NCBI GenBank assembly: GCA_007280375.1
Contig: QYQG01000055.1
Location: 1 to 42,515 of the forward strand
DNA length: 42,515 nucleotides
Direction of reading: 5' to 3'
DNA from: Betaproteobacteria bacterium
GTDB taxonomy: Bacteria; Pseudomonadota; Gammaproteobacteria; Burkholderiales; Thiobacillaceae
Notes under the pieces: generated by a model
Seen by the model: only the letters and a program-made list of their open reading frames with translations
Database searches by the model: none
Told to the model about the DNA's origin: nothing
Translations under genes and position numbers: made by a program
In this document: in pieces, positions 8,741 to 12,912 of the stretch
Layout of the letters: each line of letters starts with the position of its first letter
Numbering within the stretch: position 1 is the first letter of the stretch

Positions 8741-10707
8741 GTGAGGTTGTAAGTGAGGTTGTAAATGAAGTGGCCGCACTCTTCACGGCGGATGGCCGGT
8801 TAGCGCAAGTCATCCCCGCGTTTCGCAGTCGGCCGCAGCAGGTCGAGATGGCGGAACGCATCGCCACGGCCATCGCCGCACGGGAGGCCTTGGTGGTCGA
8901 GGCCGGCACGGGGACGGGCAAGACCTTGGCCTATCTCGTCCCCGCCTTGCAATCGGGGGGTAAGGTCTTGCTCTCGACCGCCAGCAAGACCCTGCAAGAT
9001 CAGCTCTTTCAGCGTGACCTACCGGCGGTGCGCGCGGCCTTGCAGCGCCCGATCACGATCGCCCTGCTGAAGGGGCGCGCCAATTATGTCTGTCACTTGC
9101 ATCTGGGGCGCGCCTTAGAATCGGGGCGTTTCCATGCCCCGACCGAGGTACGCGATCTGAAAAAGATCGCCCAGTTTGCCGCCCGCACGACGGACGGCGA
9201 CCGCATGGCCTGCCAGAGCGTCAGTGAGGATTCCGTCGCGTGGGCCTATGCCGTCTCTAGTCGCGACAATTGTCTGGGCAGCGACTGCCCCCATGTGCGT
9301 GACTGTTTTATCCTGAAGGCGCGCAAGCAGGCGATGGAGGCCGATGTGGTGGTGGTCAATCATCACCTCTTTTTTGCCGATGTCTGGCTCAAAGACGAGG
9401 GCGCGGGCGAGCTGTTGCCCGCCGCGCAGGTGGTGGTCTTTGACGAGGCGCATCAGTTGCCGGAGATCGCCGGGCTGTTTTTTGGCGAACGCATCGCGAC
9501 CGGGCAGTTGCTGGACCTCTGTCGCAGTGTGCGTGAGGCGGCGGCCGTGACGGCGGCCGATTACGCGCCGCTACCCAAGGCCGCCCACGCGCTGGAAAAA
9601 CAGCTAAAAGACGCGCGTTTGGCCTTTAGCGCCCCCACGAGCGGGGGGCGGCTGCCGGCCGAACGACTGGCTGAGAGTGAATCAGGCGCATTAAATGTGG
9701 TTTATAGCGGATTGATTTTATTATGCGATGAGATCGCGACACAGGCCGAACGGTCCGATGAGCTGGGTCGTCTGGATGAGCAATGCGCCGAGGCGAAACA
9801 GGGTTGGCAGCGTTGGCTGGACGGGGCGTGCGGGGCCGATTGGGTGCGCTGGCTAGAGATTACGACCTATGGACTGACCCTGCATGCCACGCCGTTGGAT
9901 ATCGGTAGCGAGTTCGAGCGCCGCATCAAAGGCAGCGAGCAAGGTGAGGGGACCGCTCGCGCGTGGATCTTTACCTCGGCCACCTTATCGGTGAACGGTG
10001 ATTTTACGCACTATCTGCGTCAGATCGGCCTGCCTGATGCGGCCACCCAGGTCTGGGACAGCCCGTATGATTATGAGCGGCAGGCCTTGCTGTATGTGCC
10101 GCAGGGGATGCCAGAGGCGAATACGCCGGGCTATACCGCCGCCGTGGTCGCCCGCGCGTGGCCGGTACTACAGGCTAGTCGCGGTCACGCCTTTATGCTT
10201 TTTACCAGTCTGCGCGCCTTGCGTGAGGCGCAGGGTATGCTCACGCAATGCTTGGCGGAGGCTGGCCTGAACTGGCCCTTGCTGGTGCAGGGCGAGGACA
10301 GCCGTTCGTCCCTGTTGGAACGCTTTCGTAGTCAGCCCAACGCCATCCTGCTCGGTAGCCAATCGTTTTGGGAGGGGGTCGATGTGGCCGGCGAGGCGCT
10401 CTCGGTGGTTATTATCGACAAGCTCCCATTCCAGCCCCCCGACGACCCGGTGTTGGCGGCACGGATGGAACAGATCAAACAGGCGGGCGGTAAACCCTTC
10501 TTTGAGGTGCAATTGCCGCAGGCCGTCATTAGCCTTAAACAAGGGGCAGGGCGCTTGATCCGCCGTGAGGCCGACCGCGGCGTGTTGATGATCTGCGATG
10601 TCCGTTTGGTTGAAAAGCCTTACGGAAAACGCATCTGGCTATCCCTGCCACCGATGCGCCGCACGCGCTTAGAAGGCGATGCGGTGGCCTTTTTTGCGGC
10701 GGGATGA
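8737..10707 (+). CDS. yoaA: XPD/DinG-family ATP-dependent helicase, YoaA-like
   Basis: VVEAGTGTGKTLAYLVPAL (Walker A), Fe-S cysteine cluster around NCLGSDCPHVRDCF, VVVFDEAHQL (DEAH), SFWEGVDVAGEALSVVIIDKLPF, QGAGRLIRR. Located next to tsaB as in E. coli yoaA-tsaB. Confidence 0.9.
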   Translation: MSEVVSEVVNEVAALFTADGRLAQVIPAFRSRPQQVEMAERIATAIAAREALVVEAGTGTGKTLAYLVPALQSGGKVLLSTASKTLQDQLFQRDLPAVRAALQRPITIALLKGRANYVCHLHLGRALESGRFHAPTEVRDLKKIAQFAARTTDGDRMACQSVSEDSVAWAYAVSSRDNCLGSDCPHVRDCFILKARKQAMEADVVVVNHHLFFADVWLKDEGAGELLPAAQVVVFDEAHQLPEIAGLFFGERIATGQLLDLCRSVREAAAVTAADYAPLPKAAHALEKQLKDARLAFSAPTSGGRLPAERLAESESGALNVVYSGLILLCDEIATQAERSDELGRLDEQCAEAKQGWQRWLDGACGADWVRWLEITTYGLTLHATPLDIGSEFERRIKGSEQGEGTARAWIFTSATLSVNGDFTHYLRQIGLPDAATQVWDSPYDYERQALLYVPQGMPEANTPGYTAAVVARAWPVLQASRGHAFMLFTSLRALREAQGMLTQCLAEAGLNWPLLVQGEDSRSSLLERFRSQPNAILLGSQSFWEGVDVAGEALSVVIIDKLPFQPPDDPVLAARMEQIKQAGGKPFFEVQLPQAVISLKQGAGRLIRREADRGVLMICDVRLVEKPYGKRIWLSLPPMRRTRLEGDAVAFFAAG

Positions 10708-11114
10708 CGGTGCGGTTGGGGTTTTTGAGCAGGGCTTGCGTTGCGCTACTGATGCTAGCGTGCTCATGGGCTTGGGCCGAGAGGACACCACGGGTAGAGA
10801 ACCATATCATCATCCAGACCTCGCCCTTGGCAGGGTTTCAATACTACGCGGGGCGCGCCTTATTTCCGCTCATGCGGGTGGGCGACCGGCTCGACCTCGT
10901 GCGCGAGCCTGAAAATGCCTTTGACCCGCGCGCGGTGCGGGTCGATTGGCGCGGCGTGCAGATCGGCCATGTGCCGCGTATCGAAAACCTCGACCTTGCC
11001 CGTCTGATCGACCGTGGCGCGCCCTTGGAGGCGCGCATCCTGCACTTGGAGGACAGTCGCGACCCGTGGCAACGCCTACTTTTTGAGGTCATCGTGGTCG
11101 AGCCGGGCCGCTGA
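10704..11114 (+). CDS. Stand-alone HIRAN-domain protein with predicted N-terminal signal peptide
   Basis: 136 aa. Signal-like MTVRLGFLSRACVALLMLACSWAWA|E, then HIRAN-like core SPLAGFQYYAGRALFPLMRVGDRLDLVREPENAFDPRAVRVDWRGVQIGHVPRIENLDLARLIDRG. ATGA overlap with yoaA. Confidence 0.82.
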   Translation: MTVRLGFLSRACVALLMLACSWAWAERTPRVENHIIIQTSPLAGFQYYAGRALFPLMRVGDRLDLVREPENAFDPRAVRVDWRGVQIGHVPRIENLDLARLIDRGAPLEARILHLEDSRDPWQRLLFEVIVVEPGR

Positions 11115-11162: not shown

Positions 11163-11849
11163 GTGATCCTCCTCGCCCTTGAAACCGCTACCGAATGGTG
11201 TTCTGCCGCACTTTGGCTGGACGGTGAGTTGCGTCTGCAGGAGGCCCATGCGGGCAATCGCCACTCGGAGCTGCTCTTGCCGATGGCGCAGCACCTCTTG
11301 GCCGAGGCGGGACTACGCTATGTGGACCTCGATGCGATCGCCTATGGCGCAGGCCCCGGTTCGTTTACCGGCCTGCGTATCGCCTGTGGGGTAACGCAGG
11401 GGCTGGCCTTGGCGGTGGGCTGTCCGGTGATCGGCGTCGGCAGCCTGCATGCCTTGGCGGCGGCCGTGCCCGTGCAACCGTCCACGGAGGTCTTGGCCCT
11501 ACTCGATGCCCGGATGGGTGAGGTCTATGTCGCGCGCTATCGTGGTGGGGTCGAGATGGCCGCGCCGGCGGTGTTGAAACCGGGCCTAGTGCCGCCGCCA
11601 ACTGCCGGCGCGTACATCGCCGGGACGGGCTTTGCCGCCTATGAGGCCGAATTGCGTGCCGCCTGGGCCGCGTGTTCCGATGGCGCCGATCATGATTACA
11701 CCTTGAGCGATGTGCGTTACCCCAGCGCGGCACAGATCGCCCACTTAGCCGCACCGCGTTTGGCGGCGGGCGAAGGTCGACCGGCTGAGACCGCCGAGCC
11801 TATCTATGTGCGCAACAAGGTCGCGCTCAAAAAGGGGGAGCACGGATGA
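11163..11849 (+). CDS. tsaB: tRNA threonylcarbamoyladenosine biosynthesis protein TsaB
   Basis: GTG start; MILLALETATEWCSAALWLDGE...AYGAGPGSFTGLRIACGVTQGLA is the TsaB/YeaZ signature. Confidence 0.95.
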   Translation: MILLALETATEWCSAALWLDGELRLQEAHAGNRHSELLLPMAQHLLAEAGLRYVDLDAIAYGAGPGSFTGLRIACGVTQGLALAVGCPVIGVGSLHALAAAVPVQPSTEVLALLDARMGEVYVARYRGGVEMAAPAVLKPGLVPPPTAGAYIAGTGFAAYEAELRAAWAACSDGADHDYTLSDVRYPSAAQIAHLAAPRLAAGEGRPAETAEPIYVRNKVALKKGEHG

Positions 11850-12307
11850 GCATCGCGTTTCGCCCCATGCAAACGGACGATCTCGCGCAGGTTCACGCGA
11901 TAGAGTGCGCAGCCTATCCGTTTCCGTGGTCGGTGGGTAACTTCGCCGATTGCCTGACCTCGGGCTATTTATGCGAGGTCTTGTTAGAAGATGACACGAT
12001 CCAGGGCTATAGCGTCGTGGCCAGCATGGTGGACGAGGCGCATGTGTTGAATTGTTGCGTCGCGCCCGAGGCGCAGGGGCGGGGCTTGGGGCGGCAGATG
12101 ATGCACCATTTGATGATGGGCCTGCCAGACATGCTGGGATCTGGACATGGCCCGTTGACGAGTCTGCTATTGGAGGTACGCCCGTCGAACGCGGCGGCGA
12201 TCCATCTTTATACCGATTTAGGCTTTTGCGAGATCGGCCGGCGGCGCGATTATTATCCGACCGCCGATGGACGCGAAGAGGCCGTGGTGATGAGGTATCC
12301 GGCATGA
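11846..12307 (+). CDS. rimI: Ribosomal-protein-S18-alanine N-acetyltransferase RimI (GNAT)
   Basis: IECAAYPFPWSVGNFADCL...VLNCCVAPEAQGRGLGRQMM...LEVRPSNAAAIHLYTDLGFCEIGRRRDYYP. Overlaps the tsaB stop. Confidence 0.94.
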   Translation: MSIAFRPMQTDDLAQVHAIECAAYPFPWSVGNFADCLTSGYLCEVLLEDDTIQGYSVVASMVDEAHVLNCCVAPEAQGRGLGRQMMHHLMMGLPDMLGSGHGPLTSLLLEVRPSNAAAIHLYTDLGFCEIGRRRDYYPTADGREEAVVMRYPA

Positions 12308-12786
12308 CGCAGACCGCGCGTTTAGAGGCCTTGGGCCTATGGCCGATCTGGCGGCAACGCGATCGCTCAGATGACACTGGACAGGAGACCGGAGGACAGC
12401 CTATTGCCGTGCTAGATGCCGTGGTGATCGGCGATGCGCGCATGACCGATGCTGCGGCAGAGGCGTTATTAGTGGCGATGTTGGCGGCGATAGGGCTACG
12501 GCGCGGGGAGAATGCGACGGTGGTCATTATCGGGGCGGACGGCATGAAACCCGCCTTACAACACACCCCTGCGCGGGTGATCATCGTCTTTGGCCAAGCG
12601 GCTGCACAGACCGTCTTGGGCACGCAGGCCGTCCTTGAAGACCTGCGCGGTACGGTGCATCGTCATCAAGGCGTGCCGCTGGTGGTGACCTATCACCCCG
12701 CGTATCTGCTGCGTAGTCCGGCGTATAAAAAGGCGGCGTGGGGCGATCTGCGCGTGGCGCAGCAACAGATACAGACAACGCCCTAG
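12304..12786 (+). CDS. UDG-fold, cysteine-free small protein; candidate DNA polymerase III psi (HolD)-like subunit
   Basis: ATG at 12304 overlaps the rimI stop (ATGA). 160 aa with N-terminal ARLEALGLWPIWRQRDR and C-terminal RVIIVFGQAAAQTVLG...GVPLVVTYHPAYLLRSPAYKKAAWGDLRVAQ (family-4 UDG-like), but no GEAPG motif and no Fe-S cysteines. Confidence 0.6.
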   Translation: MTQTARLEALGLWPIWRQRDRSDDTGQETGGQPIAVLDAVVIGDARMTDAAAEALLVAMLAAIGLRRGENATVVIIGADGMKPALQHTPARVIIVFGQAAAQTVLGTQAVLEDLRGTVHRHQGVPLVVTYHPAYLLRSPAYKKAAWGDLRVAQQQIQTTP

Positions 12787-12804: not shown

Positions 12805-12912
12805 GGGCACCTCTATAAATCGTCATTCCAGGATTGACCCGGAATCCAGTGGCTAGTATTTACTGGATTCCGGCCTACGCCGGAATGACGAAGAGGTGCT
12901 TATAGAAGCCCC
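12805..12912. repeat. MITE-like/dispersed inverted repeat between the psi-like ORF and ugd
   Basis: Left GGGCACCTCTATAAATCGTCATTCC...GACCCGGAATCCAGT, right ACTGGATTCCGGCCTACGCCGGAATGACGAAGAGGTGCTTATAGAAGCCCC. Nested inverted repeats of the widespread CGTCATTCC...GGAATCCAG type. Confidence 0.75.

Follow-up and report, generated by a model that had tools for sequence, protein, structure and literature searches.

A psi-like derivative of the rimI-linked uracil-DNA glycosylase family in a betaproteobacterial genome that has lost chi

Does the short open reading frame (ORF) that overlaps the end of rimI in a small-genome betaproteobacterium encode the psi subunit (HolD) of DNA polymerase III, as a sequence-only reading of this locus had claimed, or is it what remains of a uracil-DNA glycosylase (UDG)? 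The N terminus of psi contacts the DnaX collar and stabilizes the clamp loader, and the body of psi contacts chi, which binds SSB (PMC3290774, PMC3197488, PMC11253446). Chi is found in alpha-, beta-, and gammaproteobacteria, and psi is recognized in gammaproteobacteria alone; a review suggested that the psi not found elsewhere may have diverged past detection (PMC3290774). Psi has greatly diverged where chi retains its psi-binding site (PMC3197488). In Pseudomonas aeruginosa, psi (PA4679, 278 aa) is cryptic and undetectable by homology search; it carries an extra N-terminal ssDNA-binding domain, binds chi, and is required for normal growth (PMC8879598, PMC3197488). The protein studied here, P0001, is likewise a psi-type candidate that escapes homology search, although PA4679 is much longer.

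The window, by which we mean the whole 42,515-nucleotide stretch that was analyzed (contig QYQG01000055.1), has the gene order tsaB, rimI, P0001 ORF. As the sequence-only reading had stated, the ORF starts inside the rimI stop codon, its ATG lying within an ATGA shared with the rimI TGA (12305-12307), and encodes 160 residues with no cysteine. Its description of the ORF as “fused” to rimI was the wrong term, as the reading frames merely overlap by 4 bases. The features of the locus are as follows.

11163..11849, + strand: tsaB, with a TsaD-family domain; 4-base overlap with the rimI start; conserved neighbor
11846..12307, + strand: rimI, with a GNAT domain; 4-base overlap with the ORF start; conserved neighbor
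12304..12786, + strand: P0001 ORF, 160 aa; derived from a rimI-linked family-4 UDG and of psi size, as judged from the comparisons below
12307..12363, + strand: N-terminal psi-type motif, aa 2-20 (TQTARLEALGLWPIWRQRD); near-universal in relatives; putative DnaX-binding peptide
12364..12408, + strand: linker, aa 21-35; low model confidence; length differs among relatives
12409..12444, + strand: first core strand and motif A remnant, aa 36-47 (VLDAVVIGDARM versus ..WLIVGEAPG), from alignments
12451..12498, + strand: core helix, aa 50-65 (AAAEALLVAMLAAIGL), common to UDG and psi
12556..12753, + strand: UDG-like C-terminal half, aa 85-150 (Pfam UDG)
12694..12714, + strand: retained UDG motif B, HPAYLLR, aa 131-137, from the sequence

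The ORF is followed, ahead of the next gene, by a palindromic element (12839-12873, within about 12810-12896) with 12-nucleotide perfect arms, CCGGAATCCAGT/ACTGGATTCCGG, and outer copies of GGAATGACG; this is perhaps a small repeat element. Upstream of tsaB (10704-11114), the window encodes a short HIRAN-domain protein whose start resembles a signal peptide.

The C-terminal half of P0001 had been called UDG-like, and this was borne out by the Pfam UDG superfamily model (PF03167), which matched residues 85 to 150 with an E value of 7.5e-08 and 33.0 bits, above its cut-off of 24.3. The NCBIfam model for family 4 (TIGR00758, UDG_fam4) also matched (1.8e-12, 47.3 bits), far below its cut-off of 125.3. 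AlphaFold2 predicted a truncated UDG fold with fair confidence (pLDDT 84.9, pTM 0.71), with linker residues 21 to 30 at a pLDDT of about 50. Every significant Foldseek match of this model was a family-4 UDG or UdgX (best 1ui1, E 7e-8). P0001 therefore resembles family-4 UDGs (solved structures 1ui0 and 4zbx) in the sequence and fold of its C-terminal half and in HPAYLLR.

Unlike these enzymes, P0001 does not have the catalytic site. The alignment with the full-length relatives showed that the Fe-S segment (C..C) ahead of the first core strand and the EPFVG loop after GEAPG are deleted and that the K(C/S)RPP.N..C segment, which holds the Asn, is lost. Motif A reads GDARM in place of GEAPG. The earlier statement that a GEAPG-type motif and the Fe-S cysteines are absent was thus upheld by comparison with the homologues. 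Erosion of motif A is graded within the genus, from GEAPG (G003) through GEAPD (G002) and SEAPD (G004) to GDARM with deletions in P0001. These alignments and model matches show that P0001 descends from a family-4 UDG and has lost the active site, and P0001 most likely no longer removes uracil. We rejected “family-4 UDG” as a name for P0001 itself, given the absence of motif A and the Fe-S cysteines and a score under the family cut-off. A second UDG-superfamily protein is encoded in this genome (L031, G000:C68:7109-7615; 213 aa). Its motifs look like those of family 5, not family 4, and it is probably not the working family-4 enzyme of this genome.

Of 61 genomes, comprising that of P0001 and 60 relatives, 59 had a match to P0001, and almost all of the matches in relatives were full-length family-4 UDGs. 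Among loci whose flanks were covered, these homologues usually follow tsaB and rimI. When P0001 was the lone query, no match was found in the genome collection; the search succeeded with an alignment as the query instead. In the tree, P0001 sat on a very long end branch (5.38) and was placed nowhere, and its nearest relatives were therefore judged from gene order and identity. Loci from other members of the same family are similar to those of Thiobacillus, and the window probably comes from a relative of Thiobacillaceae with a small genome. Most close relatives (e.g., L024 and L030) already carry a serine in place of the third Fe-S cysteine (KSRPP rather than KCRPP), so that throughout this family even proteins with an intact motif A may have a changed Fe-S cluster or none. 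Other rimI-linked UDGs (L124:2195-2929, L188:1912-2706, L083:1908-2633 in G054, and L067 in G037) also have catalytic motifs that are eroded (GEHPV, GDKPS, GEALG, and GAAPG). This pattern suggests that glycosylase activity was lost repeatedly and independently in rimI-linked UDGs while the remainder of the protein was kept.

We then asked how the core of P0001 relates to psi. Using hhalign, a profile of canonical psi cores with the N terminus removed aligned to the UDG set with a probability of 98.4% (E 6e-15) and to P0001 alone with 96.3% (E 2e-9) over 118 columns, in agreement with the proposal that this protein and psi are related. The reverse search also worked: a UDG-core profile detected canonical psi cores with a best domain E value of 1.6e-11 (search space 1000), compared to a best E value of 0.2 among 1,700 shuffled cores. 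With E. coli left out, the psi-core profile recovered the E. coli psi chains of known structure with an E value of about 5e-5, and therefore the psi-core set is psi. Its matches to TAL effectors were dismissed as repeat artefacts without a significant stretch. A profile of UDG plus N terminus did not reach the psi chains in the PDB. Two homologues fall between the families. L121 clears both Pfam cut-offs (UDG, 6.8e-34; psi at the N terminus, 23.4 bits versus 22.2). L118, directly upstream of rimI, is above the psi cut-off and has a weak UDG match (0.0016); it reads THHPSHLLHHPSDKRHAWEALKRV at the UDG position VTYHPAYLLRSP.EKRKAWEDLKLA. Judged by these profile comparisons, psi cores and UDG cores are homologous.

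Structure comparison gave a different outcome for the sequence-only reading. In the Foldseek search, UDGs alone were significant and psi was not among the top 50 matches of the predicted P0001 model, so any likeness of P0001 to solved psi is indirect. Neither PF03603 (Pfam) nor TIGR00664 (NCBIfam), the psi models, matched P0001. With the family model unmatched and the chi partner missing, we also rejected P0001 as a PF03603 psi.

The N terminus of P0001 (RLEALGLWPIWRQR) resembles that of E. coli psi (LQQLGITQWSLRR) by eye, as had been claimed, and Trp16 of P0001 corresponds in position to Trp17 of E. coli psi. A profile of psi N termini nevertheless gave P0001 alone only 2.9 bits, which is not above chance (1% shuffle level, 3.3), and the residue matches to E. 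coli psi listed in the sequence-only reading are not significant by themselves. As a group, the N termini of its relatives are significant against this profile. Median scores were 23.5 bits for gammaproteobacterial rimI-linked UDGs, about 6 for those of betaproteobacteria, and 0.75 for alphaproteobacterial UDG controls, with a best score of 8.7 bits among 2,060 shuffles. The alphaproteobacterial N-terminal helices (YLREIGVQTP), in which W..R is missing, have scores close to chance. The likeness of the P0001 N terminus to psi is thus significant only because of its relatives.

The plan of the rimI-linked UDGs is some 20 residues with L..LGL.PVWR.R, then a linker, then the UDG domain. The Trp of the N-terminal motif was present in 100 of 102 proteins, a count that is biased in that motif-less proteins were partly dropped in parsing; L067, L071, L156, L190, and L193 are exceptions to the motif. 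Linkers range from 22 to 287 residues, and the longest hold a transposase-like domain. An IS200-like transposase domain lies in frame within the linker of L022:283-1716 (G018), L010 (G025), and L021 (G007); the Pfam Y1_Tnp match in L022 has an E value of 3.8e-07, and these proteins are about 440 to 480 aa with both ends intact. From analogy with psi, we infer that residues 2 to 20 of P0001 are a candidate DnaX-binding peptide.

The distribution of psi and chi was examined across genomes. Among the 61 genomes (that of the window and 60 relatives), chi (PF04364) was above the cut-off in 57 and psi (PF03603) in none. The check for a holD elsewhere in the genome of the window turned up no other recognizable psi gene. 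Across a class-wide sample, psi was recognized in 9 of 229 genomes, and a profile of the UDG with its psi-type N terminus matched at most 183 of the same 229; this is an upper bound, as many matches stop short of the N terminus owing to the linker. Three genomes encode a psi-sized protein after rimI (G044, 154 aa; G039, 132 aa; G053, 123 aa). All three are 99 to 100% complete, with chi present and Pfam psi absent, and their short proteins have a psi-like N-terminal motif with a core remnant at most. No Pfam or NCBIfam model recognizes the G039 or G044 protein.

In several gammaproteobacteria, among them Methylococcaceae, Thioalkalivibrio, Thiogranum, and Ectothiorhodospiraceae, a full UDG is encoded directly before rimI, which is the holD position in E. 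coli. These UDGs begin psi-like, e.g., YLDAMGIPVWKLR. The claim that P0001 occupies a holD-like place by rimI holds in part: the ORF adjoins and overlaps rimI downstream, whereas holD is upstream in E. coli.

Chi itself has been lost from its usual locus in this genome. In the sister species G001 to G003, the order is rplU-rpmA-holC-valS; here, holC is cleanly deleted and rpmA is directly followed by valS (L297, G000:C48:14500-24000). This comparison covers G001 to G003; in G004, for which 78 of about 140 contigs were examined, the contig breaks off shortly after rplU. A search of the rest of the assembly for PF04364 gave no match at E values up to 10. As holC is absent, P0001 cannot bridge to SSB via chi.

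Loss of chi also provides the main rival explanation. With chi gone from a shrinking genome, selection on P0001 could have relaxed, leaving a rapidly evolving remnant that has little function, if any. The clean deletion of holC fits such decay, as does the very long branch of P0001. Its identity to sister species is 48 to 52% compared to 71 to 72% for rimI, so that it evolves much faster than its neighbor, and its middle part is weakly constrained. However, the N- and C-terminal parts are better conserved than the middle, and residues 89 to 158 have a dN/dS of 0.13 to 0.23, indicating constraint. The frame has stayed open through several in-frame deletions with synonymous divergence near saturation, and GC by codon position is coding-like (0.71/0.48/0.69). 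The N-terminal motif and core are kept, and G039 and G044 underwent the same reduction yet keep chi. We consider decay unlikely, though it deserves serious weight.

Another explanation is that P0001, as an inactive or altered UDG, still uses motif B to bind uracil or damaged DNA and is unrelated to the clamp loader, with its N-terminal motif used otherwise. The intact HPAYLLR and the fold matches to family-4 UDG and UdgX are what this explanation would predict. It accounts poorly for the loss of motif A and the EPFVG loop, of the Fe-S cysteines, and of the Asn segment, and for the match to psi of the N-terminal motif in gammaproteobacterial homologues, including one that clears the Pfam psi cut-off. 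We regard it as improbable. Last, an assembly or sequencing artefact, with the deletions reflecting a misassembled full-length UDG gene, is highly improbable: the genome is a draft of 102 contigs with 89.9% completeness, but there are several separate in-frame losses without a frameshift, divergence spans the entire ORF, the locus is mid-contig, and sister species show the same motif eroding without deletion.

We therefore lean toward the explanation that P0001 is a UDG cut in frame to a psi-like minimal core, which probably docks on the clamp loader without chi. In our model, the family consists of an N-terminal, probably DnaX-binding, psi-type peptide, a flexible linker, and a family-4 UDG core, and is encoded next to rimI throughout betaproteobacteria and in many gammaproteobacteria. 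For the family as a whole, the linker would give the UDG domain access to DNA at the fork. In this small-genome betaproteobacterium, in-frame deletions have removed the Fe-S segment and the catalytic loops, reducing the UDG part to a minimal core as in canonical psi subunits. By analogy with psi, the N terminus would dock on DnaX, without chi because holC is deleted, and the remaining role would be stabilization of the clamp loader. Binding to DnaX and this stabilizing role are our extrapolation from psi.

Compared to HolD (PF03603, TIGR00664), P0001 is alike in size, in its rimI neighbor, and in the 118-column core alignment, and its family shares the N-terminal L..LG(L/I)..W..R motif. It differs in having no family-model match, in lying downstream of rimI, in the absence of chi from the genome, in one more residue ahead of the Trp, and in retaining UDG motif B. 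The claim that the ORF is psi therefore stands in part: P0001 derives from a UDG and lacks the catalytic site, its core is homologous to psi, and its family has a psi-type N terminus, but no psi model matches, its own N terminus scores at chance, and chi is absent. Derivation of P0001 from the psi/UDG family, at psi size, is well supported by these comparisons, and it may work as psi in this genome. The most fitting description of P0001 is that of a psi-like protein derived from the rimI-linked UDG family.

Taken together, we find it rather probable that psi arose by decay of a family-4 UDG and that the “missing” psi of most betaproteobacteria and many gammaproteobacteria is a full UDG with a clamp-loader-binding N terminus, the catalytic part having been lost repeatedly, once here. 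In the open-access papers searched, we found no link between psi and UDG or rimI-linked UDG; therefore, both the proposed origin of psi from a decayed family-4 UDG and the proposed identity of the betaproteobacterial psi with the rimI-linked UDG are new as far as we have checked, with novelty not assured. The rimI-linked UDG is a concrete candidate for the missing psi of betaproteobacteria, one overlooked since the family model calls it a uracil-DNA glycosylase. If true, psi would originate from a repair enzyme, and a replisome-tethered uracil glycosylase would be predicted in many common bacteria, e.g., Burkholderia and Nitrosomonas.
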